Below are positions 6,126 through 35,003 of a DNA stretch of 35,003 bases, one piece after another. A program made the position numbers and the translations under genes. The stretch comes from Asaia bogorensis (lineage in GTDB: Bacteria; Pseudomonadota; Alphaproteobacteria; Acetobacterales; Acetobacteraceae): the NCBI GenBank assembly GCA_945873195.1, contig CAMCDA010000023.1:1-35003 (forward strand). The letters are read 5' to 3'. Under the pieces are notes generated by a model. The model saw only the letters and a program-made list of their open reading frames with translations, did no database searches and was not told where the DNA came from. Positions within the stretch are counted from its first letter, which is position 1, and every line of letters begins with the position of its first letter.

Positions 6126-6207
6126 GACCAGGGGACCGAAGCGGGATCAGGGGCGGCGAAGGCAGGCGGGTCGCTCGCGCGAAGCCCGCCTCCTGGCTGA
6201 GTTGGTG

Positions 6208-6993: not shown

Positions 6994-7005
6994 GGTCGGG
7001 TTCCT

Positions 7006-9377: not shown

Positions 9378-9450
9378 GGCTCGGTCCCTCCGCTTGATTG
9401 GCGGCAGGGTAGCACCGGCGGGCAGGACGGTCGAGGCTGGAGGCCTTGCG

Positions 9451-9512
9451 CCCGAGTGGGCCCCGAGTGGGCAGTCTGTCCCCGGCGCAAGACCGGGGAC
9501 GACGCGTGGGGG
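9451..9512. repeat. Direct repeat and dispersed palindrome behind rpsD
   Basis: CCCGAGTGGG occurs twice (9451-9460, 9462-9471). Next, GTCCCCGG (9478-9485) and CCGGGGAC (9493-9500) form a perfect 8-bp stem with loop CGCAAGA. The hairpin lies about 34 bp beyond the rpsD stop and could end its transcript, although no U run follows. The unit CCCCGGCGCAAG...GACGCG recurs at 25146-25173, so it belongs to a dispersed family. Confidence 0.6.
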
Positions 9513-9533
9513 CGGACCCCCGGCAGTCTGGTA

Positions 9534-10148
9534 TCAGCGCGAGTAGAACTCGACCACCAGGTTCGGTTCCATCTGCACCGGGTAGGGCACATCGGACAGC
9601 TTCGGGGCCCGCATGAACTGGCCCTTCATCGCGCGGTGGTCGACCTGCACATATTCCGGCACATCGCGCTCGGAGGTCTGGCTGGCGTCGAGCACCATGG
9701 CGAGCTGCTTCGACTTCTCCTTCACCTCGATGACGTCGTTGTCCTTCACCTGGTACGACGGGATGTTCACCCGCTTGCCGTTGACCATGATGTGACCGTG
9801 CGACACGAACTGACGGCAGGCGAAGGGGGTGATCGCGAACTTCATGCGGTAGCACACCGCATCCAGGCGCCGCTCGAGGATCTCGATCAGGTTCTCCGAG
9901 GTGTCGCCCTTCCGGCGGACCGCTTCCTCGTAGTACTTGCGGAACTGCTTCTCGCTGATGTTGCCGTAGTAGCCCTTCAGCTTCTGCTTCGCCATCAACT
10001 GGGTGCCGAAGTCGGTCGGCTTCTTGCGGCGCTGGCCGTGCTGACCGGGACCGTAATCGCGCTTGTTGACGGGCGACTTCGGCCGGCCCCACAGGTTCGC
10101 ACCCAGGCGGCGGTTAATTTTGTACTTACTTTCGGCGCGCTTGGTCAT
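9534..10148 (-). CDS. rpsD: 30S ribosomal protein S4
   Basis: S4 is a primary 16S rRNA-binding protein that nucleates assembly of the small subunit. The 204-residue protein starts [20 protein letters not shown] and ends VVEFYSR, with the S4 RNA-binding domain at about residues 90-155 ([34 protein letters not shown]). It lacks the N-terminal zinc-binding cysteines seen in some bacteria. The ATG at 10148 matches the family start; AAAGGG lies 11 nt upstream. The gene is alone here rather than in the alpha ribosomal operon, which is usual in alphaproteobacteria. A strong promoter and a leader hairpin are visible upstream. Confidence 0.98.
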
Positions 10149-10191
10149 GTTGCGCGTTGCCCTTTCGATGGCTCTTGTTGCACCGGTAGGC

Positions 10192-10209
10192 CTTTTCCAA
10201 CAGGAAAAG
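10192..10209 (-). promoter_or_regulatory. Hairpin in the rpsD leader
   Basis: CTTTTCC (10192-10198) pairs with GGAAAAG (10203-10209) across a 4-nt loop, giving a 7-bp stem about 45 nt before the rpsD start. It would lie inside the leader RNA made from the promoter at 10262-10291. S4 represses translation through leader RNA in some bacteria, so a control role is possible, but this is inference. Confidence 0.35.
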
Positions 10210-10261
10210 ACGGGCGCGGCCCCCGAAGGACCGTCCACGTTCCCGGCAATGAAGAGCGGCG

Positions 10262-10291
10262 CCTATACGGGGCCGAGCAGGGGGTTGTCAA
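10262..10291 (-). promoter_or_regulatory. Promoter for rpsD
   Basis: On the minus strand a perfect -35 TTGACA (complement of 10286-10291) is followed after 18 bp by TATAGG (complement of 10262-10267), four of six bases matching the -10 consensus. Transcription would start near 10255, giving a leader of about 105 nt before the rpsD ATG. A strong housekeeping promoter fits a ribosomal protein gene. Confidence 0.6.
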
Positions 10292-10350
10292 ACATCGCGT
10301 GCCACGGGAGACACTGGGTGGTCACGCAAAACCCAAGCCGGAGGAAACAG

Positions 10351-10950
10351 ATGGACGCCACGCTGACAATCTATGGCATCCCGCAGTCCCGCGCCCTGCG
10401 CTGCCTTTGGGCCGCCCGCGAGTTCGGCGTTCCCTACAACAATGAGCCCGTGCATTTCACCAAGGCCCGGGAGTCCGCCGATCTCGTCAAGGCTAATCCC
10501 AACGCCCGCATCCCGGCGATCGACGACAACGGCTTCACGCTGTACGAGTCGATGGCCATCAACCTGTACCTCGCGAAGAAGCACGGCGCCGGCCACGCGA
10601 TCGGCCTGCGGTCGCTGGAGGAAGAAGCCCTCGCGATGCAATGGAGCTTCTGGGTCATGACCGAGATCGAGAAGCCTTTGCTGACGATCATGCTGAACGC
10701 CCTGGGCATGGCACCGGCCGATGACGCCACGCTTGCGCAATGCCGCTCCGCCCTCGATCGTCCGCTGGGCGTGCTGGAGGCGCATCTGGCCGATCGGGCC
10801 TGGCTGCTGGGCGACCGCTTCACCATCGCCGACCTGAACGTGGCCTCCGTGCTGGTCTGGGCGCGGGGCGCCAAGCTGGACATGACGGCCTTTCCGAAGG
10901 TGACCGCCTGGCTCAAGGGCTGCATGAGCCGCCCCGCCTTCAAGGGTTGA
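10351..10950 (+). CDS. Glutathione S-transferase family protein
   Basis: This 199-residue protein has the two GST domains: a thioredoxin-like N-terminal part with the likely catalytic Ser13 (YGIPQSRALR), the cis-proline loop NPNARIPAID (Pro54) and the glutathione-binding Glu65-Ser66 (LYESMAIN), then an all-helical C-terminal part from about residue 85 (FTIADLNVASVLVWAR). It would conjugate or exchange glutathione on electrophiles in the cytoplasm. GAGGAAACAG sits directly before the ATG at 10351. The next SDR begins 51 bp later on the same strand and may be co-transcribed, although a 7-bp hairpin (10959-10977) lies between. The class within the GST family cannot be set with confidence. Confidence 0.92.
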   Translation: MDATLTIYGIPQSRALRCLWAAREFGVPYNNEPVHFTKARESADLVKANPNARIPAIDDNGFTLYESMAINLYLAKKHGAGHAIGLRSLEEEALAMQWSFWVMTEIEKPLLTIMLNALGMAPADDATLAQCRSALDRPLGVLEAHLADRAWLLGDRFTIADLNVASVLVWARGAKLDMTAFPKVTAWLKGCMSRPAFKG

Positions 10951-10958
10951 ACCACAAA

Positions 10959-10977
10959 GGCGGGGCGACGCTCCGCC
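10959..10977 (+). other. Small hairpin between GST and SDR genes
   Basis: GGCGGGG (10959-10965) pairs with CTCCGCC (10971-10977), including one G-T pair, over a 5-nt loop. There is no U run, so it is a weak terminator or RNA-stability element at most. Confidence 0.3.
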
Positions 10978-11001
10978 GAGACATAAAGGGGAGAATGAGG
11001 A

Positions 11002-11811
11002 ATGGGTAAACTTGACGGCAAGGTGGCGATCGTCACCGGCGCCGGGCGTGGCCTGGGGCGTGCCTATGCGCGCCGGCTCGCCGGGCTGGGGGCGAAGATC
11101 GCGGTCACCGACCTCAATCTGAAATCCTATGTGGAGTTCGAGGCCGAGGCGAAGGACATGACCGCGGAGTCCACGGTCGATGAGATCATCGCGGGCGGCG
11201 GGGAAGCGATCGGCATCGAGATGGATGTCTGCGACCGCGACGCCGTGGACGCGATGGTCAAGAAGGTGATGGACACCTGGGGCCGGGTCGACATCCTGGT
11301 CTGCAACGCCGGTGGCGGGCGCGGACGGCCGGTCGATACCCGGGCCAGCACGCTGGAAACCGACCTGCTGAAGCTCGTGACCGAGATGAACTACTACGGC
11401 ACGGTCTATTGCGTGAACGCCGTGGCGCCGATCATGAAGGCCCAGCACGGCGGCAAGATCGTCACCGTCAGCTCGGTCGCCGGCCTGACGCCGTCGCTGG
11501 ATGGCGGCTACGCCCATTATGGCGCGGCGAAGGCGGCGATCCTGCACTACACGAAGTACCTTGCGCAGGACCTCGGCCCCTTCGGCATCACGGCCAACTG
11601 CATCGCCCCGGGCACGATCACCACGGGCCGCATCGTGGCCAGCGTCATGCCGAACCGGGCTGGCGCCAACCGCGACCCGACCGAGCGCGTGGCGCTGCGC
11701 CGCCTCGGCGGTGTCGAGGACTGCGCCAAGGTCGTCGAGTTCTTCTGCACCGACCTGTCCGACTATGTGACCGGCCAGTGCATCGCGATCGATGGCGGGT
11801 TGATGCGCTGA
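11002..11811 (+). CDS. SDR family NAD(P)-dependent oxidoreductase
   Basis: The 269-residue protein is a classical SDR: cofactor loop TGAGRGLG (12-19), Asp37 after the second strand (VTDLN), which favours NAD(H), CNAGGG (101-106), catalytic Ser158 (VTVSSVAG), Tyr173 and Lys177 (YGAAK), and the C-terminal GQCIAIDGGLMR common in 3-oxoacyl-ACP reductase-like members. An insertion of about two residues lies between Ser and Tyr. GGGGAG is well placed before the ATG at 11002. It would oxidise or reduce an alcohol/ketone pair; the substrate is unknown. It follows the GST gene and is closed by a strong inverted repeat. Confidence 0.93.
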   Translation: MGKLDGKVAIVTGAGRGLGRAYARRLAGLGAKIAVTDLNLKSYVEFEAEAKDMTAESTVDEIIAGGGEAIGIEMDVCDRDAVDAMVKKVMDTWGRVDILVCNAGGGRGRPVDTRASTLETDLLKLVTEMNYYGTVYCVNAVAPIMKAQHGGKIVTVSSVAGLTPSLDGGYAHYGAAKAAILHYTKYLAQDLGPFGITANCIAPGTITTGRIVASVMPNRAGANRDPTERVALRRLGGVEDCAKVVEFFCTDLSDYVTGQCIAIDGGLMR

Positions 11812-11823
11812 AGCCGGCCAAAC

Positions 11824-11865
11824 GGTCTGGCGGATCATGACAATCCAGGCGTGATCCGCCAGACC
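11824..11865. terminator. 14-bp perfect inverted repeat after the SDR gene
   Basis: GGTCTGGCGGATCA (11824-11837) is perfectly complementary to TGATCCGCCAGACC (11852-11865), with a 14-nt loop. It sits 12 bp past the SDR stop and about 70 bp before the acetyltransferase gene. The stem is strong enough to stop transcription, but no U run follows, so it could instead be a protein-binding site. Confidence 0.55.
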
Positions 11866-11933
11866 AATCGCCTCCATGCCTTGCCCGCGGCGCCGGCCCC
11901 CGCCACGCTGCGGGTCAGATGCAGGAGACCGCC

Positions 11934-12635
11934 ATGCCCCCGCCCGTTGGCCCCGAAGTCGACACCACCCCCCGGCCGCTGCCCGCGCGGGTGACCATCC
12001 GCGGTCAGCACGTCGTGCTGGAACCGCTCCATATCCGGCACGCGCCGGAACTCTGGCACGCGGCCCAGGGCGCGGATGAAAGCTGGACCTATCTCGGGAT
12101 GGGGCCCTTTGCCTCGGCCGAGGCGATGCGGCGGCAGGTCGCCGACATGGCCAGCATGCAGGACTATCTGTACTGGGCCGTGCGGCCGGTCGCGACCGGA
12201 GTCGTCTCCGGCTGGCTCGCGCTGCTGGACATCCAGCCCAAGCACGCCGCCATCGAGCTCGGCGGCATCTGGTTCAGCCCCCGCATGCAGCGCACCAAGG
12301 CCTCGACCGAGACGATCTACCTGCTGCTCAAGCTCGCCGCGGACGACCTGGGCTACCGGCGCCTGGTGTGGAAGTGCAACGCGCTCAACGCCCCGTCCAA
12401 GCGCGCCGCCGAACGGCTGGGTTTCACCTATGAGGGCCATCTGCGGAAGCACTGGGTCATCAAGGGCCGCCAGCGCGACACGGACTACTACAGCATCACC
12501 GACGACGAATGGCCCCGCTGCCGAGATGCGCTGCTCGCCTGGCTCGATGCCTCCAACTTTGCCCCGGACGGCACCGCCCGCCGCGGCCTCGCGGAATTGC
12601 GTCTCGCGTTGCCTGCCCCGGCCGCAATCGCCTAG
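11934..12635 (+). CDS. GNAT family N-acetyltransferase (RimJ/RimL-like)
   Basis: This 233-residue protein matches the longer RimJ/RimL-like acetyltransferases: an N-terminal RGQHVVLEPLHIRHAPELWH, the central GWLALLDIQPKHAAIELGGI, the region WFSPRMQRTKASTETIYLL where the acetyl-CoA loop lies (QRTKAS instead of the usual QGRG), and a conserved end (KCNALNAPSKRAAERLGF). The start at 11934 is chosen because AGGAG lies 7 nt upstream; an ATG at 11919 would put that site inside the gene. Family members acetylate protein N-termini or small molecules. It stands between the inverted repeat and the efflux genes, with no visible link to either. Confidence 0.88.
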   Translation: MPPPVGPEVDTTPRPLPARVTIRGQHVVLEPLHIRHAPELWHAAQGADESWTYLGMGPFASAEAMRRQVADMASMQDYLYWAVRPVATGVVSGWLALLDIQPKHAAIELGGIWFSPRMQRTKASTETIYLLLKLAADDLGYRRLVWKCNALNAPSKRAAERLGFTYEGHLRKHWVIKGRQRDTDYYSITDDEWPRCRDALLAWLDASNFAPDGTARRGLAELRLALPAPAAIA

Positions 12636-12689
12636 AACGGGGGTGGCCGCGTCTCATGCGGCTGCCGGAGACGGCCCAGCCAGTGGGGG

Positions 12690-13853
12690 ATGAATATGCC
12701 GATCCTTTGGGCCGCACGTGGTCAACCCGCCACCGCGGCGGTCGCCCTTGGCGTCGTGCTCCTTCTTGTCGGTTGCAAGCCGGAGAACAAATTCGCCCCC
12801 CCGCCGCCGCCACGGGTCCAGGTAGCCCCGCCGCTTGAGCAGAAAATCACCCGCTATGTCGAGGCGACCGGCAACCTGTCTCCCGTCAACCAGGTTGACC
12901 TCGTCGCCCGCGTCTCCGGCTTCCTGCAGGAAATCGGCTATCGCGACGGCGAGATGGTGAAGCAGGGCAACAAGCTCTTTGTCGTGGAGCCACGCCCCTA
13001 CCTGAACCAGTTGCAGGAAGCCCAGGCGACTCAGGCCGCCGCCGCCGCGCAGTTGAAGCAGGCCGAGGCCGAGTACGTCCGCCAGTCTCAATTGGGTAAG
13101 CAGGACTTCGCCTCCCAATCCGTCGTTGATCAGGCCCTGGCAAAGCGCGACGCAGCCCGGGCATCCTTGCAGCAGGCCACGGCCAGCACGGAAAACGCGG
13201 CGATCCAGTACACCTATACCCAGGTCAATGCGCCCTTCGACGGCGCCGTCTCCGCTCATCTGGTCTCGGTCGGTGAATATGTCGGCGGGACCACCCCCAC
13301 CAAGCTCGCGACCATCGTTCAGCGCGACCCGATCTGGGTCCAGTTCTCGCTGAGTGAGCAGGACGTGCAGCGCATCCGGGAGGGGATGGCGAAGCGCGGC
13401 GTCAAGATTGATCCGGTCGGCACCGTGCCGGTGGAGGTCGGGCTGCAAACCGATACCGGCTATCCGTATCAGGGGCTGATCGACTACGTCGCCCCGGCGA
13501 TCGACGCCTCCACCGGAACCCTGGCCCTGCGCGGCCAGTTGAAGAACCCCGAGAACCGGTTGCTGCCGGGATACTTCACGCGGGTGCGTGTTCCCCTGGG
13601 CCGTGACATCGACGCCATGCTCGTCCCCGACGTCGCCATCGGCACCGATCAGCTGGGCCGCTACGTTCTGGTGGTGAACGATCAGAACGTGGTCGAGCAG
13701 CGACGGATCACGGTCAGCGATGTGGTCGGAGAAAACCGGGTCGTCGAGTCCGGCCTGAAATCCGGGGAGAAAGTGGTCGTCAACGGTATCCAGCGCGCGG
13801 TGCCCGGGCAGAAGGTCACGCCCGAGGCCGCTCCGCCGGCCAAGGGCGGCTGA
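12690..13853 (+). CDS. RND efflux membrane fusion lipoprotein (AcrA/MexA-like)
   Basis: This 387-residue periplasmic adaptor joins an RND pump to an outer-membrane channel. It has an N-terminal hydrophobic segment ending in the lipobox LLVGC (Cys29 from the first ATG), then a Pro-rich linker (PPPPP), a barrel-sandwich half (VDLVARVSGFLQEIGYRDG), an Ala/Gln/Glu-rich alpha-helical hairpin (about residues 108-165), the second lipoyl half (VNAPFDGAVSAHLVSVGEYV), a beta-barrel and a C-terminal membrane-proximal domain. A second ATG at 12696 has better spacing from GTGGGGGA and is the likelier start. The pump gene begins 6 bp after the stop, so they form one operon. No TetR or two-component regulator adjoins. 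Confidence 0.94.
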   Translation: MNMPILWAARGQPATAAVALGVVLLLVGCKPENKFAPPPPPRVQVAPPLEQKITRYVEATGNLSPVNQVDLVARVSGFLQEIGYRDGEMVKQGNKLFVVEPRPYLNQLQEAQATQAAAAAQLKQAEAEYVRQSQLGKQDFASQSVVDQALAKRDAARASLQQATASTENAAIQYTYTQVNAPFDGAVSAHLVSVGEYVGGTTPTKLATIVQRDPIWVQFSLSEQDVQRIREGMAKRGVKIDPVGTVPVEVGLQTDTGYPYQGLIDYVAPAIDASTGTLALRGQLKNPENRLLPGYFTRVRVPLGRDIDAMLVPDVAIGTDQLGRYVLVVNDQNVVEQRRITVSDVVGENRVVESGLKSGEKVVVNGIQRAVPGQKVTPEAAPPAKGG

Positions 13854-13859
13854 TCCGCC

Positions 13860-16800
13860 ATGATCTCCAAATTCTTCATCAACCGTCCCGTGCTGGCCAA
13901 TGTGCTGGCCGTGCTGATGGTCCTGCTGGGCGCGGTGTCGGTCTTCCGTCTGCCGGTCGCCCAGTATCCGAACGTGGTGCCGCCCACCGTCTCGGTGACC
14001 ACCCGCTATCCAGGCGCCGGCGCCACCGATGTGATGAACACCGTCGCCCTGCCGATCGAGCAGCAGGTCAACGGCGTGGACGGCATGATCTACATGCAGT
14101 CCACCAGCGCCTCCGATGGCACCTATTCGCTGATCGTCACCTTCGCGATCGGCACCGATCTCGATTTCGCGCAGGTGCTGGTGCAGAACCGGGTGTCCGC
14201 CGCGCTGTCATCCCTGCCCATGGCCGTGCAGGCACAGGGCGTCGTCGTCCAGAAGAAGTCCACCTCGATCCTGAAGATCATCGCCCTGACAGGCGACAAG
14301 GGCCAATTCGACAGTCTGTATCTGGCGAACTACGCGACCATCACCTTGCAGCCCGAACTGGCGCGCGTGCCGGGCGTTGGCCAGGTGACGATCTTCGGCG
14401 CCGGCCAATACGCGATGCGGATCTGGTTGAACCCCGACCAGTTGAAGGCCCGCGGCCTGACCACCGATGATGTCAAGAACGCCATCCAGCAGCAAAGCCA
14501 GCAGGTCGCCGCCGGTCAGCTCGGCGCCCCGCCCGCGCCCAACGGCACCAACTTCCAATACACGCTGAATATCGCCGGCCGGCTCGATGAGGCCGATCAA
14601 TTCGCCAACATCATCGTCAAGACCGGCTCTGACGGCACCGTCACCCGCGTCAAGGACGTGGGCCGGGTGGAGCTGGGGGCGCAGACCTACAGCCAGACGT
14701 TCACGGTCAATGGCCAGCAGGGCGCTGGCCTCGCGATCTTCCTGACACCCAGCGCCAACGCGCTGGCGGTGGCGGAAGCCGTCGACGCCAAGATGCAGTT
14801 GCTCGCGAAAAGCTTCCCGCCCGGCGTGGTCTTCTCGGTGCCGTTCGACACAACGAAATTCGTGTCGGCTTCCATCGACGAAGTCTATCGCACCCTGATC
14901 GAGGCCGGCATCCTCGTGCTGGCCGTCATCCTGGTGTTCCTGCAGGACTGGCGCGCGACGCTCGTGCCCGCCACCACCGTCCCGGTGACGATCATCGGCG
15001 CCTTTGCCGCCATGGCCGCGATGGGATTTTCGGTCAATCTCTCCACCCTGTTCGCGCTGGTGCTGGCCATCGGCATCGTCGTCGATGACGCCATCGTCGT
15101 CGTGGAAGGCGCCACCCATCAGATCGAACAGGGGCTCAGTCCGCACGACGCCGCGATCAAGGCGATGGAGCAGTTGTTCGGCCCCATCATCGGCATCACG
15201 CTCGTGCTGATGGCTGTCTTCGTGCCGACCGCCTTCCTGCCCGGCCTGACCGGAGAGCTTTACGCCCAGTTCGCGATCGTCATCTCGGCCACAGCCCTTC
15301 TCAGCGCGATCAACGCTGCGACGCTGAAGCCCACCCAGTGCGCCCTGTGGCTGCGCCCGGCCGTGCCGCCGGAAAAGCGCAACCTGTTCTTCCGCAGCTT
15401 CAACCGCGTCTACAACCCGATCGAGCGTGCCTACGCCCGCCTGATCGAGCGCATGGCTCGGCGCAGCGGCCTCATGGCGATCTGCGGCATCATCTTGATC
15501 TCCGGCGCGGTAATCGCCTTCAGCCGCGTCCCCACCGGCTTCCTGCCCCTGGAAGACCAGGGCTATCTGATGATCAGCGTCCAGTTGCCCGACGGCGCGT
15601 CCCTGGAACGAACCAGCCGAGCGATGAGCAAGGTATCGGATTTGGCGTTGAAGGTGCCGGGGGTGGAGTATGTCGTCGTGATCGGCGGCATGTCCGTGAT
15701 CGACAACAGCGCGTCGCTCGCGAATGCCGGCGTCGCCTATGTCACGCTGAAGGACTGGAGTGTCCGTGGCGCGGGCCAGGACCTGCGATCCATCTTCATG
15801 AACCTGTCCCGGGAGATGGAGCAGGTCCCCGAGGCATCGATCCTGGTCATTCCGCCCCCCGCGATCCAGGGCATCGGCAATTCCGGCGGCTTCACGATGA
15901 TGGTGGAGTTGCGTGACGGCTCCGGCGATCTGCGGAAGCTCGGGGAAATCACCAACGCGATCATCGCGGCCGCCGGCACGCAAACAGGCCTGACGCGCGT
16001 GGCCACATCGTTCCGAGCGCAGGTCCCGCAGCTTGATGTCGAGATCGATCGAACCAAGGCGCAAACGCTGGGCGTGACCGTGGGGCAGACCTTCCAGGGC
16101 ATGGCATCCTACCTGGGGTCCACCTTCGTCGGGCAGATCAACAAATTCTCCCGCACGTTCCAGGTCTATATCCAGGCCGATCAGGATTTCCGCGTCACCA
16201 CGCGGGATATCGAGAACCTCCCGGTCAAGACCGCGAACGGCACCATGGTGCCCCTGGGCACGCTGGCTAGCGTGACCCCGTCCACCGGGCCCGCGCTGAT
16301 CACGCTCTACAACCTGTATCCCGCGGCCACCGTGCTGGGGTCGCAGGCGGCCGGCTTCAGCAGCGGCGACGCACTGGGGTTGATGGAGCAGGCATCCGCC
16401 GCGACGATGCCGCCGGGTACGGCCATTGAGTGGTCGGCGATGTCGTTCCAGGAAAAGCAGGTCGGCAACCAGCTTGTCTATACGTTCGGTCTGGCGATCC
16501 TGCTGGTCTACTTGGTGTTGGCGGGCCAGTACGAAAGCTGGTACGCGCCCATCACCGTCGTCCTCTCCGTTCCTCTTTCGCTACTTGGCCCCGCGTCGGT
16601 GCTGACCGCGGCGGGTCTGGACAACAATCTTTACATCCAGATCGGTCTGATCCTGTTGATCGCGCTCTCCGCGAAGAACGCCATCCTGATCGTGGAGGTC
16701 GCGCGGGAAGAACGGGTGCTGCATGGCAAGCCAATCCTGGAAGCGGCGGTCAATGCGGCCCGCGCCCGGTTCCGCCCGATCGTCATGACGTCCTTCGCGT

Positions 16801-17009
16801 TCATCCTGGGCGTCTTGCCCCTGGTGCTCGCCACCGGCGCCGGGGCCAGCGCGCGGAAGTCCATCGGTGTGACCGTGTTCAGCGGCATGCTCGCATCCAC
16901 CTGCCTCGCGGTGCTGTTCGTGCCGTCGTTCTTCGTGGTGGTGCAGCGGTTTGAGGAATGGCTGAGCAGCGGCAAGAAGACCAAGCCAGCCGCGGTGCCA
17001 GCCGAATAA
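13860..17009 (+). CDS. RND multidrug efflux pump, HAE-1 (AcrB-type) permease
   Basis: The 1049-residue length and sequence fit the AcrB/MexB class, a proton-driven homotrimer that exports drugs and other hydrophobic compounds. It begins ISKFFINRPVLANVLAVLMV (TM1). The proton-relay residues are present: Asp409-Asp410 in TM4 (GIVVDDAIVVVEG) and Lys939 in TM10 (LSAKNAILIVE). Twelve membrane segments and two large periplasmic loops (about 30-340 and 560-870) are expected. The gene follows the adaptor by 6 bp. The outer-membrane factor is not encoded here, so a TolC-like channel must come from elsewhere. The C-terminus ends in a Lys/Ala/Pro tail. The drug range cannot be read from sequence. Confidence 0.97.
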   Translation: MISKFFINRPVLANVLAVLMVLLGAVSVFRLPVAQYPNVVPPTVSVTTRYPGAGATDVMNTVALPIEQQVNGVDGMIYMQSTSASDGTYSLIVTFAIGTDLDFAQVLVQNRVSAALSSLPMAVQAQGVVVQKKSTSILKIIALTGDKGQFDSLYLANYATITLQPELARVPGVGQVTIFGAGQYAMRIWLNPDQLKARGLTTDDVKNAIQQQSQQVAAGQLGAPPAPNGTNFQYTLNIAGRLDEADQFANIIVKTGSDGTVTRVKDVGRVELGAQTYSQTFTVNGQQGAGLAIFLTPSANALAVAEAVDAKMQLLAKSFPPGVVFSVPFDTTKFVSASIDEVYRTLIEAGILVLAVILVFLQDWRATLVPATTVPVTIIGAFAAMAAMGFSVNLSTLFALVLAIGIVVDDAIVVVEGATHQIEQGLSPHDAAIKAMEQLFGPIIGITLVLMAVFVPTAFLPGLTGELYAQFAIVISATALLSAINAATLKPTQCALWLRPAVPPEKRNLFFRSFNRVYNPIERAYARLIERMARRSGLMAICGIILISGAVIAFSRVPTGFLPLEDQGYLMISVQLPDGASLERTSRAMSKVSDLALKVPGVEYVVVIGGMSVIDNSASLANAGVAYVTLKDWSVRGAGQDLRSIFMNLSREMEQVPEASILVIPPPAIQGIGNSGGFTMMVELRDGSGDLRKLGEITNAIIAAAGTQTGLTRVATSFRAQVPQLDVEIDRTKAQTLGVTVGQTFQGMASYLGSTFVGQINKFSRTFQVYIQADQDFRVTTRDIENLPVKTANGTMVPLGTLASVTPSTGPALITLYNLYPAATVLGSQAAGFSSGDALGLMEQASAATMPPGTAIEWSAMSFQEKQVGNQLVYTFGLAILLVYLVLAGQYESWYAPITVVLSVPLSLLGPASVLTAAGLDNNLYIQIGLILLIALSAKNAILIVEVAREERVLHGKPILEAAVNAARARFRPIVMTSFAFILGVLPLVLATGAGASARKSIGVTVFSGMLASTCLAVLFVPSFFVVVQRFEEWLSSGKKTKPAAVPAE

Positions 17010-17026
17010 CCGGGAGGGATCGTTCC

Positions 17027-18001
17027 ATGTCCGTCATTCTGGGTTCCGGCGAATACCGGTATCGGGTCGAGGAAGGCTGGGGGCAATTGCCCGAAGGCTG
17101 GTCGTTCCATGAGGTCGGCGCGGTGGGTGTCGACCGCAACGACAATGTCTATGTCTTCAACCGCGGCGAACACCCGATGATGGTGTTCGATCGGGAGGGT
17201 ACGTTCCTACGTTCATGGGGGGAGGGTCTGTTCCCCCGCGCCCACGGCGTCCACATGGGACCGGACGACACGATCTGGCTGACCGATGACGGCGCCCATT
17301 GCGTCCGGCAATGCAGCCTGGACGGCAAGGTTCTGATGACCCTCGGCATCCCCGGCAAGCCGGCCCCGTTCATGAGCGGGCAGCCCTTCTGCCGCTGCAC
17401 CCATACCGCCCTGTCGCCGAAGGGAGAGATCTACGTATCCGACGGCTACGGCAACGCGCAGGTCCACAAATACGCGCCCGACGGCCGGCACATGATGTCG
17501 TGGGGTCGTTGCGGGATCGGAGAGGGTGAGTTCAACCTGCCCCACAACATCCATTGCGATGCCGATGGTTGGGTCTACGTCGCGGATCGGGAGAACCACC
17601 GCATCCAGGTCTTCGACGGCAACGGCAGGTTCGAAACGGCCTGGAGCAACGTCCTCCACCGCCCCAGCGCGCTGTTCATGACGCGGGGCGCCTGTCCGCT
17701 GTGCTTTGTGGGAGAGGTCGGGCCGTACCTGGGCTCCAATCGTGGCTTCCCCAATCTTGGGCCGCGGGTCAGCATCCTTTCCAACACCGGGAAGGTTCTG
17801 GCGCGCCTGGGGTTCGAGGAAAACGCGCACGGCCAGGCTCCTGGACAGTTCATGTCGCCGCATGGGATCGCGGTGGACTCGCGTGGCGATATCTATGTCG
17901 GGGAGGTCTCGGTCGCGTCCTGGCCATCCCTGTTCCCAGGGCAACCCCGGCCGGAGAAACTGCGAAGCCTGCAAAAGCTGGTGCGGGTCGGTGCTGCATG
18001 A
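17027..18001 (+). CDS. NHL-repeat beta-propeller protein (PAL-like)
   Basis: This 324-residue protein consists of NHL-type repeats of a beta-propeller: blades include GVDRNDNVYVFNRGEH (about residue 32), HMGPDDTIWLTDDGAH (about 75), ALSPKGEIYVSDGYG (about 128), HCDADGWVYVADRENHRIQV (about 175) and AVDSRGDIYVGEVS (about 285). It resembles the lyase domain of peptidyl-alpha-hydroxyglycine alpha-amidating lyase and related 6-bladed propellers, which bind metal in the central pore. I see no signal peptide. GGGAGGG is well placed before the ATG at 17027, 18 bp after the pump gene. Its end overlaps the phosphopantetheinyl transferase start. Enzyme versus binding function is undecided. Confidence 0.85.
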   Translation: MSVILGSGEYRYRVEEGWGQLPEGWSFHEVGAVGVDRNDNVYVFNRGEHPMMVFDREGTFLRSWGEGLFPRAHGVHMGPDDTIWLTDDGAHCVRQCSLDGKVLMTLGIPGKPAPFMSGQPFCRCTHTALSPKGEIYVSDGYGNAQVHKYAPDGRHMMSWGRCGIGEGEFNLPHNIHCDADGWVYVADRENHRIQVFDGNGRFETAWSNVLHRPSALFMTRGACPLCFVGEVGPYLGSNRGFPNLGPRVSILSNTGKVLARLGFEENAHGQAPGQFMSPHGIAVDSRGDIYVGEVSVASWPSLFPGQPRPEKLRSLQKLVRVGAA

Positions 18002-18758
18002 TCTCCCGCCGGTCGTCCCGCGGGAGACGCTGAACCCGGAATCGGGCATCATCGATCTGTGGTGGTATCCCTACGGTTCCACCACCGATCCGGCCCTGTT
18101 GGCGGAACACGCCGCCTTGATGACGCCGGAGGAGCGGGCGCGGCATGACCGGTTCGTCGGGGCGGCCGATCGGGCGCTGTTCCTGGCGACGCGCGCCCTG
18201 GTCCGCACTACGCTGTCTCGTTACGCCTCCGTGGCGCCGGCTGACTGGCGGTTCGGCACTCATGCCCGCGGCAAGCCGCATATCGAGGCGCCGGCGACCA
18301 CGCCGCCGCTGCGCTTCAACCTGTCGAACACGCACGGGCTGATCGTTTGCGCGGTCAGCACGACGTTTGACGCCATGGGTGTGGATACGGAGCCGGCGGA
18401 TCGGCGCAATGCCAGTGTGGCGCTCGCGGATCGTTATTTCTCACCGACCGAGGTCGCGGCATTGAATGCCCTGCCGGCCGACCGGCAACAGCGACGGTTC
18501 CTTTCGTACTGGACGTTGAAGGAAAGCTACATCAAGGCGCGTGGCTTGGGTTTGGCGATCCCGCTGGATCAGTTTTCATTCCTGCTGGATGACGACCGCA
18601 TCGGGATCGCGTTTGACCCGCGCCTGGGCGACAATCCCACGCGCTGGCGGTTTGCGTTGATGGAGGCGCAACCGAACCATCTGGTCGCGATAGGCACCGA
18701 CACCGGCGGGGCGGAGTGGTCGTTGCGCGCCCGCCGTGTCGTGCCGTTGGTGGATTGA
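17991..18758 (+). CDS. 4'-phosphopantetheinyl transferase, Sfp type
   Basis: The enzyme moves 4'-phosphopantetheine from coenzyme A to a serine of a carrier protein. The 255-residue protein shows the Sfp-type signatures: Gly130-Val-Asp132-x-Glu134 (AMGVDTEPADRR), binding Mg and CoA phosphate, and Trp174...Lys177-Glu178-x-x-x-Lys182 (YWTLKESYIKARGLGL). The N-terminal part has the RFNLSNTHGLIVCAV strand typical of the family. The likely start is GTG at 17991, inside the last codons of the NHL gene (11-nt overlap), so translation is probably coupled; the exact start is uncertain because the ribosome site is weak. No polyketide, peptide synthetase or fatty-acid gene adjoins it. The gene ends 6 bp from the convergent dehydrogenase gene. 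Confidence 0.9.
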   Translation: MLHDLPPVVPRETLNPESGIIDLWWYPYGSTTDPALLAEHAALMTPEERARHDRFVGAADRALFLATRALVRTTLSRYASVAPADWRFGTHARGKPHIEAPATTPPLRFNLSNTHGLIVCAVSTTFDAMGVDTEPADRRNASVALADRYFSPTEVAALNALPADRQQRRFLSYWTLKESYIKARGLGLAIPLDQFSFLLDDDRIGIAFDPRLGDNPTRWRFALMEAQPNHLVAIGTDTGGAEWSLRARRVVPLVD

Positions 18759-18764
18759 TCCCCT

Positions 18765-19934
18765 TTACCAGGCCGCGTCGAGCAGCATCCGCACCGTCGG
18801 CGGTCCCTCGATCTTGCGCGGGTTCGTGTGAATCCACCGGTCGTGCATGGAATTGACGGCGATCGTATCGAGTTGATCCGCTTTCACGCCGACCGCCCGT
18901 AGTGTGCCGGGCAGGCCCAGGTCGGCGATTAGTTCCGCCACCGCGTCGGCGGCCTTCATGTTTGGCCGGCCCATCGCCTCCGCCACCATGACCTGGCGCT
19001 CGGCGTTCACTGGTTCGTTGAACCGCAGCACCGAGGGCAGCATGACGCAGGAGGTGTAGCCGTGCGGCACATCGGCGGTGCCGCCCAGCACATGGCCGAT
19101 GCCGTGCGAGGCACCCTTCGAGACGCCATTCTGCGACCCCATGATCGACATCCAGGCGCCCAACTGGCAGTCCAGCCTCGCTTCCAGATCGGTGGGGTTG
19201 GCCTTGACCGCGCGCAGCCCGCGGGAGAGCAGGCGCAGCGTGTGCATGGATGCACCGTCCGAGAACGGGGTGGCGTTGATCGAGCAGATATCCTCGACCG
19301 CATGATCGACGGCGCGGATGCCGGTTGACAGGAACAGCCATTCCGGCGTGTGAACGGTGACGGCGGGATCGAGGATGACGGCCTGCGGCATCATCAGTTC
19401 CATGCCGTAGGATTGTTTCAGATGCCGCTCGGTGTCGGTGCAGCCGGCGAACCAGGTGAACTCCCCGGCCGAGAGCGTGGTAGGCACGGCGATGAAGCGG
19501 GCGCCTGGCGGTTTGGTGGGCGGGCGGATGGTCTTGCCCTCGGGGGAGATGGTCGCGTGGAAGGCGTCGAGCTGGCGCGGATCGGTGATGTCGTTGCCGA
19601 GGCAAAGCCCGACCATCTTGGCCGCGTCGGTGACGGACCCGCCGCCGACGGTGACCAGCAGGTCGGCCTTGGCGGCCCGGGCCTCATTCGCCGCGGCAAC
19701 CACGTCGATGCGGGGTGTATGGGCGCCGATCTTCCCGCACACGCCGGCGAGGCGGTTGCCCAGCACGCCGCGCACCTGGTCGACGACATCGGTTTCCCGC
19801 GCCAGCGTGCCGCTGACCATGACGTAGACGGCCTGTGATTGCAGCCGCTCCAATTCGGCGGTCAGCGCGTCCTTCAGGGGAATGCCCTGGATGACCCGAT
19901 CCATCGGCGGGTAGCGGTGGATGCCTTGGAACAT
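18765..19934 (-). CDS. Iron-containing alcohol dehydrogenase family protein
   Basis: This 389-residue protein has the type III ADH fold: the NAD-binding VTVGGGSVTDAAKMVG (95-110) and PTTLSAGEFT, and a C-terminal helical metal domain. Three of four usual iron ligands are seen, His211 (VDHAVED), His277 (ASHGIGH) and His291 (VPHGY), with the extra His281. The first ligand, normally Asp in a G-M-D-A-x-x-H-A context, is Arg207 (GIRAVDHAVE), as in some maleylacetate-reductase-like members. Metal use and substrate are therefore uncertain. The ATG at 19934 follows AGGGAGA. It reads toward the phosphopantetheinyl transferase gene with only 6 bp between. A role in alcohol/aldehyde or maleylacetate reduction is possible. 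Confidence 0.9.
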   Translation of the reverse strand: MFQGIHRYPPMDRVIQGIPLKDALTAELERLQSQAVYVMVSGTLARETDVVDQVRGVLGNRLAGVCGKIGAHTPRIDVVAAANEARAAKADLLVTVGGGSVTDAAKMVGLCLGNDITDPRQLDAFHATISPEGKTIRPPTKPPGARFIAVPTTLSAGEFTWFAGCTDTERHLKQSYGMELMMPQAVILDPAVTVHTPEWLFLSTGIRAVDHAVEDICSINATPFSDGASMHTLRLLSRGLRAVKANPTDLEARLDCQLGAWMSIMGSQNGVSKGASHGIGHVLGGTADVPHGYTSCVMLPSVLRFNEPVNAERQVMVAEAMGRPNMKAADAVAELIADLGLPGTLRAVGVKADQLDTIAVNSMHDRWIHTNPRKIEGPPTVRMLLDAAW

Positions 19935-20032
19935 GGTTTGTCTCCCTGTGTCGGTGGGGCGCGTTGTTCCCCGATGCTGTGCCTGACGGTGTTGGTTGAT
20001 CCGGTGGCCGATCTGGCGGTGGCGCGGAGGCT

Positions 20033-27991: not shown

Positions 27992-28067
27992 GGGGCTGTA
28001 GCTCAGTTGGGAGAGCGCCTCGTTCGCAATGAGGAGGTCAGGGGTTCGATTCCCCTCAGCTCCACCA
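27992..28067 (+). tRNA. tRNA-Ala (anticodon CGC)
   Basis: The 76-nt sequence folds as a cloverleaf: acceptor stem GGGGCTG/CAGCTCC with one G-T pair, D arm GCTC...GAGC, anticodon arm CCTCG-TTCGCAA-TGAGG with anticodon CGC (reads GCG, alanine), and T arm AGGGG-TTCGATT-CCCCT. The 3' CCA is encoded. GCG is a common codon in such GC-rich genomes. I see no duplicated 3' end nearby that would mark an integrated element. Confidence 0.97.
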
Positions 28068-29254: not shown

Positions 29255-29288
29255 CCGTCATCGGACTGTCATGCAACGAGAGCATAAG
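29255..29288 (+). promoter_or_regulatory. Candidate PHO box with -10, upstream of the giant nuclease gene
   Basis: CCGTCAT (29255-29261) and CTGTCAT (29266-29272) are separated by exactly 4 nt. This is the architecture of a PhoB site (two CTGTCAT-like halves, 11-nt period); the second half is perfect and the first has one change. Ten bases further is CATAAG (29283-29288), four of six -10 bases, at the distance known for E. coli Pho promoters. The leader to the ATG at 29425 would be about 130 nt and holds two copies of CCGCGCGG (29307, 29331) able to pair. The spacing agreement is seen; PhoB control is inferred. Confidence 0.5.
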
Positions 29289-29424: not shown

Positions 29425-32400
29425 ATGGCGCTTGGGCCGGGATCAATCGCGTTCGTTGGATTCAATGCCGACGGCAACGACAACATTGCCTTCGTGGCGC
29501 TGGAAACCTTGCCAGCCGGAACGGTCATTTTCTTCCAGGACAACGAATGGTCCGGAACCGCCTTCAATACCGGTGAAAGCGCCTGGAGCTGGACCGCCGC
29601 GGCCGATGTCGCCGCCGGGACGGTGGTGCGCATCGACAGTATCGGCGGCGCGCTCGCGACCGACATCGCGACCAACATCGGCACCGCCACCTTCGTTGAC
29701 GCCACGAACCGGGGCATCTCCTCGGGTGACGAGATCCTCTACGCCTTTGTCGGCACCAACGCGACGACCCCCACCGCGTTCCTGACCGCCTTCGCCAGCA
29801 ACGCCCTGACCAGCGGCGCGTCGCTGGATGGCACCGGCCTGACCGCCGGCGTCAACGCCATGTCCTTCGGTGTCGCAACCGGTGCCGACATCGCCGCCTT
29901 CAACGGCGCGCGCACCGGGCAGACCAGCTTCTCGGGCTACGCCTCGGTCATCAACAACCCGGCCAACTGGGTGTTCCAGGATGGCAGCGGCGACCAGTCG
30001 ATCGACACCGTCACGCCCGACCTGCCGTTCCCGACTACGGCCTTCACCGTCGCCGGCACCGAAACCCAGACCGTCACCTTCGCCGCCGGGTCGCTGGCGG
30101 TGTCGGCCCTCGAAGGCAACAGCGGAACGACCAGCTTCTCCTTCACCGTGGAGCGCACCGGCGGCACCACGGGTCAGGTGACGTTCACCGCCCAGTTGAA
30201 CGCCGGCGACGCCAATTCCGCCGATTTCGCGGGCAACCCCGCCCTGCCGATGATCGTCAACGGGACCATCGCGGCCGGCGCGTCCAGCAGCGTCGTGACC
30301 ATCGACGTGGCCGGCGACACCGCGGTCGAACTCAACGAGGGCTTCGGCCTCACCCTTCTATCCGCCACCAATGCCGACGCCTCGGTCACCACCGCGCTCG
30401 GCGGCACCCTCAACGCGGCCGGCACCATCCAGGACGACGACGCTCCGACCTTGGGCGGCATTCGCATCCTGACCGCCGCGGAATCGCTGCAAGGCGCCGC
30501 GACGACCCCCGTCGCAACGGATGCAGTGACCTTGCTGCGCCTCGGCGCCTTCACCCCGACGATTGGCAACTCGGAAGTCGTTGGCTACGACGCCGCGACC
30601 GCCCGCATGTTCGTCATGAACCCGAACGCCAACCAGTTGGACATCGTCCAGATCGAGGCCTCGGGCAGCCTGACCCCCGTCGTCGGGATCGATCTGTCTA
30701 CCCTGACCGACTACGGCGCCGCCTCGACCGTGTCCGTGAAGAACGGCATCGTCGCGGTCGGATTTGACAGCGCCGTGGACGGCGCCATCGGCCACGTCGC
30801 GCTGTTCGACACGAACGGTACGTTCATTGCCCAGCTCGATGTCGGCATCGGCCCCGACTCGCTGACCTTCACCCCCGACGGCGCCCGCATCCTGGTCGCC
30901 AATGAGGCGGAGCCGGACACTACCGTGCCGCTCACGGTCGGGTCGGTCTCGATCATCGATGTCAGCGGCGGGGCGGTCTCCGCCACGGTCATCAACACGA
31001 TCTCGTTCTCCTCCCTGAACGGGTTCGAGAACCAGTTGCGCGCCGCGGGCGTCCAGGTATTCCCCGGGCAGGCCGCCGCCAACGATATCGAGCCGGAATA
31101 CATCGCCGTCTCTCCCGACGGGCGCTTCGCCTACGTGACGTTGCAGGAAGTCAACGCGATCGCGGTGATCGACCTTGCCGATCCGACCGCATCCGCCCCG
31201 ATCAGCATCATGCCGCTCGGCTCGATCGATCGCTCGCTGCCCGGCAACGTGCTCGATACCTCCGATCAGGATGGCGGGATCAACGTCAATGGGGCGCCGA
31301 TCCTTGGCCTGCCGCAGCCCGACGCGATCGCCAGCTTCGCGGTGGCCGGCGTCACCTATTTCGTCACCGCCAATGAGGGCGATTCACGGGTCGGGCTCAC
31401 CGACTCGGTCCGCCTGAGCAATGCCGCCTATGTTCTGGACCCGACCGCGTTCCCGAACGCAGCGGCCTTGAAGGCCAACGCCGATCTCGGCCGGTTGAAT
31501 GTACTGACCACGATTGGCGATACCGACAACGACGGCGACTTCGACCAGATCTACGCCCTCGGCGGCCGAGGCATCTCCATCTTCCGCCAGAACGCGGACG
31601 GCAGCATCACCAAGTTGCGCGAAACCGGCGGGGAGTTCGAACGGATCATCGCCGCCCGTGCCGACGCCGGGACGACGTTCAACCAGAACCAGGGCAGCGG
31701 CACGTTCGACAACCGGTCCGACGACAAGGGCCCGGAGCCCGAAGGCATCGACATCGGCACGATCAACGGCCGGCAATATGCATTCGTGGCCCTGGAACGC
31801 CAGGGCGGCGTCATGGTCTACGACGTCACCGATCCGGCGAACGCGTCCTTCGTCTCGTACATTCCGCCTGCCGCCAATGATCACGGCCCGGAAGTGGTCC
31901 GCTTCATCGCGGCCTCCGACAGCCCGACCGGCACGGCCCTGCTGCTGAGTGCCAACGAAATCAGCGGCACCACAACCGTCTATGCGGCGCTGGCGTCCGA
32001 CCTGCCGCAGCAGGTCCGGTTCGCCGCTGGTTCGCTGAACGTCGCGCGGGCCGAGGGCAACGCCGGCACCTCCCAACTGACCTTCACCGTCGAGCGCATC
32101 AACGGCATGCTCGGCCAGGTCGATTTCACCGTGCAACTCGGCGCCGGCAGCGCCGGTGCCACGGACTTCGCCGGGTCTCCCGCCTTGCCGCTGGCGATCA
32201 ACGGATCGATCGCGGCCGGCCAGGCCAGCGCGACCATCACCGTCGATGTGGCCGGCGACGCCGTGTTTGAGGCGAATGAAACCTTCACCTTGGCGATCCA
32301 GAGCGCGACCAACCTGCTGGCCGGTGTCGCCGTCCAGGTCGCCGCCACGCAATCGGGCGCGACCGGCACGATCCTGAATGACGAAGCTCCGACCTTCATC

Positions 32401-35003
32401 GGTCAGGTGCAGGGCGAGGGGCATGCCTCCGCGATCGTTGGCCAGGTCGTGACCTTGCAGGGCGTCGTGACGGCCGTCGATACGAATGGTAGCCGCGGCT
32501 TCTACATCCAGGACGCTGGCGACGGGAATGCCGCGACGTCCGATGGCATCTTCGTGTTCCTGCCCAGCGGGACGCTGCCGACTGTGGGGAATGCGGTTCA
32601 GGTGACGGGCACGGTGGGGGAATTCACGCCCAACGGCGCCGCGCCTGGCGCGTTCTCAACGACGCAACTCGCCTCCGTCACGAATGTAACGGATATGGGC
32701 GCGGGCACGCCGATCGTGGCCTCCGTGATCGGCGGCGCCGGTGGGCTGCTGCCGCCGACCGAGAGCCTGGCCGCTGGCGGTCTGTTCTACGAGCGGCTTG
32801 AAGGCATGCTGGTGACCGTGAAGACGCCGGTTGCTGTCGGTCCTCGCAACGGCTTCGGCGAGATATTCACCGTCGTCGACAGCGACAACGATGCCTCGAA
32901 CGGCCTGAACGCGACCGGCATGACGCCGCGCGGCAACCTGCTGCTGACGCCTGGCACCGGCGTGTTCGGTGACAACGCGAGCACCGGCGGTGACTACAAC
33001 CCGGAACGCATCCAGATCGATGACGACAGCGGCATGCTGGCCGGGTTCTCGACCCCCACGGCCAATCTGGGCGCGGTGCTGAACGATGTGACCGGCATCA
33101 TGCGCTATGACTTCGGCAACTACGAAGTCATTGCCACGCAGGCCTACACGGTTGGCAAAGCCAGCACCTTGGTGAAGGAAACCACCACGCTGACCGGCGG
33201 CGCCGACAAGCTGCGGGTTGCCGCCTACAACGCCGAGAACCTGGACCCGAACGACGGCGTTGGCCGCTTTGCCACGATTGGCGGCGAAATCGTCAATCGC
33301 CTGCTGTCGCCGGACATCATCGCGCTGCAGGAAGTGCAGGACAATGACGGCGCCACCAACTCGGCCACGGTCGCCGCCGACGTCACGCTGCAAATGCTGG
33401 TCGACGCGGTTGCGACCGCCGGCGGCCCGGCATACGCGTTCATCGACCATCCGTTCATCGGCGACGATACCAACGGCGGCCAGCCCGGTGGCAACATTCG
33501 CACGACGTATCTGTATCGCACCGATCGGGTGAACTTCGTCGAGGGGTCGCTGAAGACGATCGGCTCCGACGGCAGCGCGGTGACGACATCCTACGTCGAC
33601 CAACGGACCAATCCCGACAACGCCTTCTTCGACTCGCGCCCGCCGCTGGTGGCCACGTTCACGTTCAACGGCACGCCGATCACGGTGATCAACAACCACT
33701 TCACCTCCAAGGGTGGCAGCGCGCCATTGCTGGGGAGCGACCAGCCGCCCTTGAACAACGGGGAGGTGCAGCGCGCCGCCCAGGCGCAGGCCGTCAATAC
33801 GTTTGTCGATAACGCGCTGGCCGCCAACGCCCATGCCCGCGTCATGGTGATCGGCGATCTCAACGAATTCCCCTGGGAGCAGCCGATCGACGTCCTGAAG
33901 GGCACCGCCACGATCACGGGCTACGACGTTCCAGGCACGAACCCGTCCTTGGCGACCGCGACCTTCACGCCTGGCGGCACCGCGGTGCTGACCAGTCTTG
34001 GGGACACCCTGCCGGCCGAGGAACAATACGACTACGTCTTCGACGGCAACTCCCAGACGCTCGATCACATCCTGGTCGACAACAACCTCGCGGTTGGTGC
34101 GCAATATGACATCGTCCGCATCAACGCCGAGTTCGCCGACCAGACATCGGATCACGAACCGCTGATCGCGCAGGTCACGATCCCGACCTTCAGCCTGGCC
34201 AACTATGTGCGCATCGGCCGCTTCGACCTGCCGGAACCGACCCGCACCACGGCGCCCGCCGGCAGCGTGCTGGCGCAGGAAGTCTCGGCCGTCACCTACA
34301 ACTGGGATACCGGCTCGCTGTTCGTCGTGGGCGACGGCGGCACGTCGATCGTGCAGATCAGCACCACCGGTCAGTTGATCAACTCGATGACCTTGGCCGC
34401 CGGTTCCAGCCCGCAGGGCACGGAATTCTACGACCCCGAAGGCCTGGCCTATATCGGCGGCGGCAAGTTCGTCATGACCGAGGAGCGCGACCGCCAGCTT
34501 GTCGAGTTCACCTACACCCCCAACACCACGCTGACCCGCGCGAATGCGCTGACCGTGAAGCTGGGCACCTCGATCGGCAACAACGGGTTCGAGGGGCTGA
34601 CCTTCGATCCCACGACCGGCGGCTTCATCGTCGCGAAGGAAATCAACCCGCAATACGTGTTCCTGACGAACGTGAATTTCGCCGCCGGCACCGGAACGAA
34701 CGGATCGCCGACCACGACCGACTCCACGCCGTTCTTCGATGTCGGGCCGGCGGGTCTGGCGGATCTCGCCGACCTTTACGCCCTGTCGAATGTCGACGCG
34801 TTGGACGGCCTGGCCGCATCCAGCCACATCCTGCTGCTGAGCCAGGAATCCGGGAAGATCGTCGAGGTCGATCGTTCCGGCACCGTGTTCAGCACGCTGA
34901 CCATCCTGTCGGACGCCGGCAACCCGCTTTCGACCGCCGATCAGCAGCATGAAGGCATGGCGATGGGCGCCGACGGCACGATCTATGTCGTCAGCGAGAA
35001 CGG
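29425..35003 (+). CDS. Giant multidomain exported nuclease-like protein (ExeM/NucH type), 3' end missing
   Basis: An uninterrupted frame of at least 1859 codons runs off the right edge. Visible order: 1-205 an N-terminal beta-rich domain (IAFVGFNADGNDNIAFVALE, FFQDNEWSG); 215-340 Calx-beta; 343-860 choice-of-anchor I (DIEPEYIAVSPDGRFAYVTL, KGPEPEGIDIG); 862-989 second Calx-beta; 991-1256 OB-fold of extracellular nucleases (GFYIQDAGDGN); 1263-1587 an endonuclease/exonuclease/phosphatase domain with YNAENL, Glu1303 (LQEVQD), His1425 (INNHFTSKGG), Asp1478/Asn1480 (IGDLNEF) and Ser-Asp-His 1575-1577; from 1589 an SdiA-regulated/phytase-like propeller (DPEGLAYIGGGKF from 1670). All catalytic motifs for phosphodiester cleavage are present. 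No Sec signal is visible, so type I secretion with a C-terminal signal beyond the window is likely. AAGGGGA precedes the ATG. Likely role: degradation of extracellular DNA or other phosphoesters. Confidence 0.9.
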   Translation, partial: MALGPGSIAFVGFNADGNDNIAFVALETLPAGTVIFFQDNEWSGTAFNTGESAWSWTAAADVAAGTVVRIDSIGGALATDIATNIGTATFVDATNRGISSGDEILYAFVGTNATTPTAFLTAFASNALTSGASLDGTGLTAGVNAMSFGVATGADIAAFNGARTGQTSFSGYASVINNPANWVFQDGSGDQSIDTVTPDLPFPTTAFTVAGTETQTVTFAAGSLAVSALEGNSGTTSFSFTVERTGGTTGQVTFTAQLNAGDANSADFAGNPALPMIVNGTIAAGASSSVVTIDVAGDTAVELNEGFGLTLLSATNADASVTTALGGTLNAAGTIQDDDAPTLGGIRILTAAESLQGAATTPVATDAVTLLRLGAFTPTIGNSEVVGYDAATARMFVMNPNANQLDIVQIEASGSLTPVVGIDLSTLTDYGAASTVSVKNGIVAVGFDSAVDGAIGHVALFDTNGTFIAQLDVGIGPDSLTFTPDGARILVANEAEPDTTVPLTVGSVSIIDVSGGAVSATVINTISFSSLNGFENQLRAAGVQVFPGQAAANDIEPEYIAVSPDGRFAYVTLQEVNAIAVIDLADPTASAPISIMPLGSIDRSLPGNVLDTSDQDGGINVNGAPILGLPQPDAIASFAVAGVTYFVTANEGDSRVGLTDSVRLSNAAYVLDPTAFPNAAALKANADLGRLNVLTTIGDTDNDGDFDQIYALGGRGISIFRQNADGSITKLRETGGEFERIIAARADAGTTFNQNQGSGTFDNRSDDKGPEPEGIDIGTINGRQYAFVALERQGGVMVYDVTDPANASFVSYIPPAANDHGPEVVRFIAASDSPTGTALLLSANEISGTTTVYAALASDLPQQVRFAAGSLNVARAEGNAGTSQLTFTVERINGMLGQVDFTVQLGAGSAGATDFAGSPALPLAINGSIAAGQASATITVDVAGDAVFEANETFTLAIQSATNLLAGVAVQVAATQSGATGTILNDEAPTFIGQVQGEGHASAIVGQVVTLQGVVTAVDTNGSRGFYIQDAGDGNAATSDGIFVFLPSGTLPTVGNAVQVTGTVGEFTPNGAAPGAFSTTQLASVTNVTDMGAGTPIVASVIGGAGGLLPPTESLAAGGLFYERLEGMLVTVKTPVAVGPRNGFGEIFTVVDSDNDASNGLNATGMTPRGNLLLTPGTGVFGDNASTGGDYNPERIQIDDDSGMLAGFSTPTANLGAVLNDVTGIMRYDFGNYEVIATQAYTVGKASTLVKETTTLTGGADKLRVAAYNAENLDPNDGVGRFATIGGEIVNRLLSPDIIALQEVQDNDGATNSATVAADVTLQMLVDAVATAGGPAYAFIDHPFIGDDTNGGQPGGNIRTTYLYRTDRVNFVEGSLKTIGSDGSAVTTSYVDQRTNPDNAFFDSRPPLVATFTFNGTPITVINNHFTSKGGSAPLLGSDQPPLNNGEVQRAAQAQAVNTFVDNALAANAHARVMVIGDLNEFPWEQPIDVLKGTATITGYDVPGTNPSLATATFTPGGTAVLTSLGDTLPAEEQYDYVFDGNSQTLDHILVDNNLAVGAQYDIVRINAEFADQTSDHEPLIAQVTIPTFSLANYVRIGRFDLPEPTRTTAPAGSVLAQEVSAVTYNWDTGSLFVVGDGGTSIVQISTTGQLINSMTLAAGSSPQGTEFYDPEGLAYIGGGKFVMTEERDRQLVEFTYTPNTTLTRANALTVKLGTSIGNNGFEGLTFDPTTGGFIVAKEINPQYVFLTNVNFAAGTGTNGSPTTTDSTPFFDVGPAGLADLADLYALSNVDALDGLAASSHILLLSQESGKIVEVDRSGTVFSTLTILSDAGNPLSTADQQHEGMAMGADGTIYVVSEN

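Follow-up and report, generated by a model that had tools for sequence, protein, structure and literature searches.

Among extracellular nucleases, ExeM of Shewanella is a protein of 871 aa that carries a signal peptide, OB and EEP domains, an LTD module and a C-terminal membrane anchor (PMC6085458; PDB 9sf8/9sf9). The alkaline phosphatases PhoX and PhoD have conserved active-site residues and are normally stand-alone Tat substrates that are exported folded, and a subfamily of PhoD with an Asp ligand has been described (PMC4223295). In Synechocystis PCC 6803, a phosphatase and an extracellular nuclease are encoded by the separate genes of the Pho-controlled phoA-nucH operon (PMC1906773), and nuclease and 5'-nucleotidase are fused on one chain in named plasmid genes of Picosynechococcus PCC 7002 (WP_012305544, 1686 aa), Skermanella rosea (WP_203099293, 2021 aa) and Paracoccus (WP_139616074, 1770 aa). 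Here we analysed a window of 35,003 bp, which is the entire contig C23 of a draft assembly of 400 contigs and 5.45 Mb, and describe a giant gene of an Acetobacteraceae-like alphaproteobacterium that probably encodes one exported modular phosphoesterase of 5109 aa, made under phosphate starvation and converting nucleic acids to phosphate.

From the ATG at position 29425 of the forward strand, a start that is backed by relatives beginning MALGPGSIAFVG, the frame is free of stops to the end of the window (29425..35003), giving 1859 codons, and it continues on contig C143 (L008:12852-2953, minus strand), where more than half of the gene is located. The joined frame stays open for 5109 codons and encodes a protein of 526 kDa with a pI of 4.2 and four cysteines, in the order Nt–Calx–choice_anch_I–Calx–OB–EEP–SdiA–cadherin–LTD–LTD–5'-nucleotidase–PhoX-like–PhoD–RTX–5'-nucleotidase–Hint. 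Separate genes or a frameshift between the domains were ruled out by the frame without a stop. GC-rich shadow ORFs (781 codons) on the other strand were likewise rejected as genes, being without homology support.

The N-terminal domain (Nt, 29425..30069, this and all following domains of the window on the forward strand) has no Pfam or NCBIfam model; the PCC 7002 nuclease shares it, as do Nt-Hint proteins that stand alone. It is followed by a Calx-beta-like domain (residues about 226-345, 30100..30459), 62% identical to the Calx copy of a gene in genome G032, by the beta-propeller-like choice_anch_I domain (residues 380-853, 30562..31983; PF22494, 368 bits; NF038117, 455 bits, over the cut-off of 300), and by a second Calx-beta domain (residues 926-970, 32017..32394; PF03160, 25 bits, just under the cut-off of 27), of which the first is a paralogous copy that alone stays below the Pfam threshold. 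The nuclease comprises an OB-like part (32452..33054), aligned with PDB 9sf9, and an EEP domain (33187..34194; PF03372, Exo_endo_phos, 37.7 bits, over its own cut-off), with PDB 9sf8 and 9sf9 as structural relatives. An OB-like part followed by an EEP domain with metal and phosphate residues is the layout of ExeM/NucH; the corresponding model NF033681 matches residues 1012-1568 with 183 bits over positions 2-508 of 546, and since the cut-off of 300 is not reached, we regard the nuclease as a distant relative and do not file it as ExeM. The window ends within an SdiA-regulated, YjiK-like propeller (residues 1616-1858, 34222..35001; PF06977, 143.5 bits, cut-off 21; PDB 3qqz). The SdiA module begins a separate gene in G029 and G032, indicating that the window gene was fused at codon about 1591-1600. 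On C143 the chain continues with a cadherin domain, two LTDs and a 5'-nucleotidase. Next come a PhoX-like unit, PhoD together with its N-domain and the RTX repeats, and the chain closes with another 5'-nucleotidase and Hint_2 as its last domain.

An earlier note, made from the window alone, had claimed one open frame of at least 1859 codons with choice-of-anchor I, two Calx-beta domains, an EEP nuclease and an SdiA-regulated propeller in this order, and had listed six EEP residues. The frame and the domain order are confirmed, and each of the residues (E1303, H1425, D1478, N1480, D1576 and H1577) is intact at its position. Both Calx-beta domains are present as a paralogous pair, although each falls under the Pfam cut-off, and the RTX repeats that the note proposed to look for at the C-terminus do exist but are internal, the C-terminus being Hint_2. 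The reading as an exported phosphoester-hydrolysing chain is likewise supported, whereas a nuclease with extra propellers understates a protein to which C143 adds LTDs, 5'-nucleotidases, PhoX-like, PhoD, RTX and Hint modules.

The PhoD unit (PF09423, 142.6 bits, cut-off 27) has intact GD, DDHE and D-x-H motifs. It lacks Cys and has GDWR at the place of the Fe-ligand Cys, which is the Asp type, and it would thus belong to the Asp-ligand subfamily (PMC4223295). The other phosphatase unit scores 21.2 bits with PF05787, below the cut-off of 24, and is therefore called PhoX-like; Cys, NHE/NQE, GEE, EN and RPED are conserved among 13 relatives, and a PDB search with this unit gave nothing useful and no alignment to a solved PhoX.

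The 5'-nucleotidase units (5_nucleotid_C, PF02872, 117 bits, two stretches) are close copies with a BLAST identity of 93.8%, and the longest run identical between them is 142 bp. Their N-domain occurs in two types, of which type A keeps ASDxE and SH, and type B, found in both copies of the giant protein, has YG-ESG and VDQ. In the alignment of both copies and all type-B relatives, the Asp of the first D-x-H is changed to Gly or a gap and the His of the later SH to Gln, residues that we assign as metal ligands by comparison with UshA and an alignment with 2z1a. Because the canonical dinuclear metal ligands of the N-domain are lost, we call these modules nucleotidase-like, and they may not be 5'-nucleotidases. 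One reading of this loss, compatible with the proposal as a whole and to be taken seriously even if we put it somewhat below an even chance, is that the N-domains are dead enzymes kept for binding or structure and that only the EEP, PhoX-like and PhoD units work. However, the N-domain copies differ by dN 0.011 and dS 0.21 over 412 codons (dN/dS 0.05), and acidic and His residues not found in the canonical site are conserved throughout type B (GESG, EGD, GNHEFDLG, VDQLD and GGGHER). This strong constraint, though by itself no proof of catalysis, and the new residues would fit a rewired metal site as well. What the altered site does is a question raised by the giant protein; an AlphaFold2 model of the altered 5'-nucleotidase (rows L058-L062) had a mean pLDDT of 39, and no claim is based on it. 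All modules compared evolve under purifying selection, with dN/dS values of about 0.2-0.3 except for the 5'-nucleotidase N-domains with their lower value between copies. Among genes of otherwise the same architecture, some genomes have type A and others type B, a pattern that suggests exchange of the domain. The subtype with altered ligands (L008:9523-11253 and L008:3781-5526, minus strand; L032, L058-L062, L072, L087) is common to alphaproteobacteria and MAGs labelled Akkermansia(ceae). In two of these MAGs, labelled Akkermansia muciniphila (L059 and L061), PhoD-choice_anch_I-5'nuc is found in ORFs that are 3574 and 3166 codons long and about 40-68% identical to modules of the window species, and the species label looks doubtful.

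No N-terminal signal peptide was visible by eye in the giant protein. Taken together with the pI, the near absence of cysteines and the RTX repeats (HemolysinCabind, 33 bits), this makes type I export in an unfolded state the most likely route. The own genome encodes a PrtD/HlyD pair elsewhere than at the giant gene, and in PCC 7002 genes for an ABC transporter with a peptidase domain and for HlyD come after that of the smaller relative (Nt-OB-EEP-5'nuc). Since Tat normally exports both PhoX and PhoD folded, their presence on a chain with no visible signal peptide is a puzzle, and one may ask how these iron-dependent enzymes would mature without being folded before export. We consider it rather doubtful that the 526-kDa chain is a complete line from nucleic acid to phosphate, in which nucleotidase-like domains would be catalytic with a rewired metal site and PhoX and PhoD would travel unfolded through a type I exporter and acquire their iron outside the cell. 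In another contig of the assembly, an ORF of 5721 codons (L116, G000:C24:6001-26000, positions 5453-19999, minus strand) consists of repetitive cargo-like sequence and, at its end and in frame, the latter half of an ABC exporter of type I (TIGR01842, 431 bits, positions 187-538), and it is followed by a HlyD-like ORF; this is a fusion, a deletion or a misassembly.

A Pho box (CCGTCAT-CGGA-CTGTCAT, 29255..29272, forward strand) with one mismatch to CTGTCATN4CTGTCAT lies 153 bp upstream of the ATG and is the sole match with at most two mismatches in the 35-kb window, where 0.10 would be expected. At the same limit, Pho boxes were found upstream of 9 of 65 related genes (shuffles: mean 0.08, maximum 1), although some of the nine come from close relatives, which limits their independence; none lies upstream of the genes of G029 and G032 at up to three mismatches. 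Directly downstream of the giant gene and on the same strand is a stand-alone PhoX gene (515 bits), and no gene fits between the two.

The single frame, the domain order, the catalytic residues of the EEP and PhoD units and the likely ones of the PhoX-like unit, the Pho box and the purifying selection can be read from the sequence; export route, activity and the working order proposed next are inferred. PhoB would bind the Pho box and turn the gene on, and a type I system would export the chain unfolded, to fold outside with Ca2+. The OB/EEP nuclease would then cut DNA or RNA, and the nucleotidase-like, PhoD (diesterase/monoesterase) and PhoX-like (monoesterase) units could free phosphate from the fragments, while LTD, Calx, cadherin and propeller units may serve as spacers between the enzymes or in binding to substrate or a surface, and Hint may cleave the chain close to its C-terminus. 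ExeM nucleases act in biofilms and in DNA use (PMC6085458), and the main role could accordingly be carbon or nitrogen use of DNA, cutting of biofilm matrix or defence against DNA traps; we find this unlikely in view of the Pho box, the PhoX neighbour and the PhoX-like, PhoD and nucleotidase-like units, which belong to phosphate-releasing families. Gene fusions reveal which enzymes act together, and here a nuclease, nucleotidase-like domains and two unrelated alkaline phosphatase families behind a phosphate-starvation site would be tied into one extracellular phosphorus-scavenging pathway, on a natural multi-enzyme chain suited for testing channelling.

The adjacency of C23 and C143 is supported by contig overlap and synteny rather than by a long read. 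In a draft assembly with contigs ending within the giant gene, the gene could be an assembly product, so that the true gene ends or continues otherwise past the window and only the nuclease-SdiA part is real, and the G032 assembly is likewise broken within repeated 5'-nucleotidase modules. We consider this quite improbable: the last 149 bp of C23 (34855..35003) are identical to the end of C143, a single match with no third copy in the assembly, the frame is preserved, and about nine relatives have the same SdiA-cadherin-LTD-LTD-5'nuc order that spans the join. Furthermore, the 142-bp run of identity between the 5'-nucleotidase copies is shorter than the overlap, and the repeat should hence not have misled the assembly. 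That the giant protein is a Hint-bearing polymorphic toxin against other bacteria, as its nuclease and C-terminal Hint domain might suggest, is scarcely credible, since nothing toxin-like follows Hint, the space before the PhoX gene holds no further gene and the remaining enzymes are of nutrient phosphatase families.

A tRNA-Ala (CGC; 27992..28067, forward strand, ARAGORN) is located 1.36 kb upstream of the giant gene, and the gene content downstream of this tRNA varies in the genus (G002, G007, G029 and G032); a search near the giant gene for att-like repeats of the 3' end of the tRNA found none. In G029, the same tRNA-Ala is followed instead by an ORF at least 3158 codons long (L158:3-9476). 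A tyrosine integrase gene (L032:738-2150, minus strand) about 0.9 kb upstream of the G029 SdiA-LTD-LTD-5'nuc-PhoX gene suggests that the latter sits in a mobile island.

Good relatives were found in 3 of 33 genomes within the genus and in 50 genomes of the 299-genome family sample, a scan of genome contigs gave six relatives, and the best named match was from Neoroseomonas lacus (Acetobacteraceae). The modules are freely shuffled, with separate genes for the nuclease, choice_anch_I-5'nuc, SdiA-LTD-LTD-5'nuc (about 1820 aa), PhoX and PhoD, and with partial fusions such as SdiA-LTD-LTD-5'nuc-PhoX (G029, 2651 codons), choice_anch_I-5'nuc-PhoX (G238, 2078), OB-EEP-PhoD (G185, 1647), Nt-choice_anch_I-EEP-5'nuc (G198) and Nt-Calx-OB-EEP-5'nuc (G032). 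In the class sample, G471 has Calx-OB-EEP-5'nuc-5'nuc-choice_anch_I (3374 codons), and G418, G655 and G648 are similar. Just upstream of the G032 gene are two tandem stand-alone Nt-Hint proteins (L033:6334-9750), from which we guess that the giant may have arisen by growth of an Nt-Hint protein between its two ends. The own genome also has an Nt-Hint gene seemingly split over two frames (L011:10567-12332, minus strand) and a second EEP nuclease cut by a contig end (L010:8352-9767, minus strand).

PhoX and PhoD on one chain occurred only in the giant gene among the genomes searched, and two 385-genome class samples, at strict E-value limits, yielded neither another PhoX-PhoD fusion nor any fusion of EEP with SdiA. 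In the open-access literature we found no paper on choice-of-anchor I with a phosphatase and none on fusions of PhoX with PhoD and multi-domain nucleases, which is weak evidence of absence, and the phosphate paper on PCC 7002 does not mention its nuclease-nucleotidase. The earlier note had not seen its exact combination described. The full module set was not found in the other genomes sampled, but a nuclease with choice_anch_I, with or without 5'-nucleotidase, is also seen in WP_203099293, G418, G471, G655 and G648. Its functional reading lacked a purpose, which the Pho box and the adjacent PhoX gene now supply.

Compared to the known systems, the giant protein shares with ExeM the OB and EEP domains and their catalytic residues, but its nuclease is one of many units. 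Its PhoD unit and probably also its PhoX-like unit resemble the described alkaline phosphatases in their active-site residues, and both differ in being parts of one chain. As in phoA-nucH, phosphatase and nuclease would be under one Pho-controlled promoter, here as a single chain with more and different phosphatase families. The plasmid-encoded fusions likewise join nuclease and 5'-nucleotidase, together with Nt in PCC 7002 and choice_anch_I in Skermanella, whereas they have one 5'-nucleotidase each and no PhoX, PhoD or SdiA-LTD. The family relatives (SdiA-LTD-LTD-5'nuc, G029, G238 and G185) share the modules and in part also their order, and some have Pho boxes, but each has only part of the set. 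In conclusion, the giant gene is, as judged from its sequence, probably an extreme version of modular Pho-controlled extracellular phosphoesterases; its parts are known, whereas none of the other genomes sampled had the full combination.
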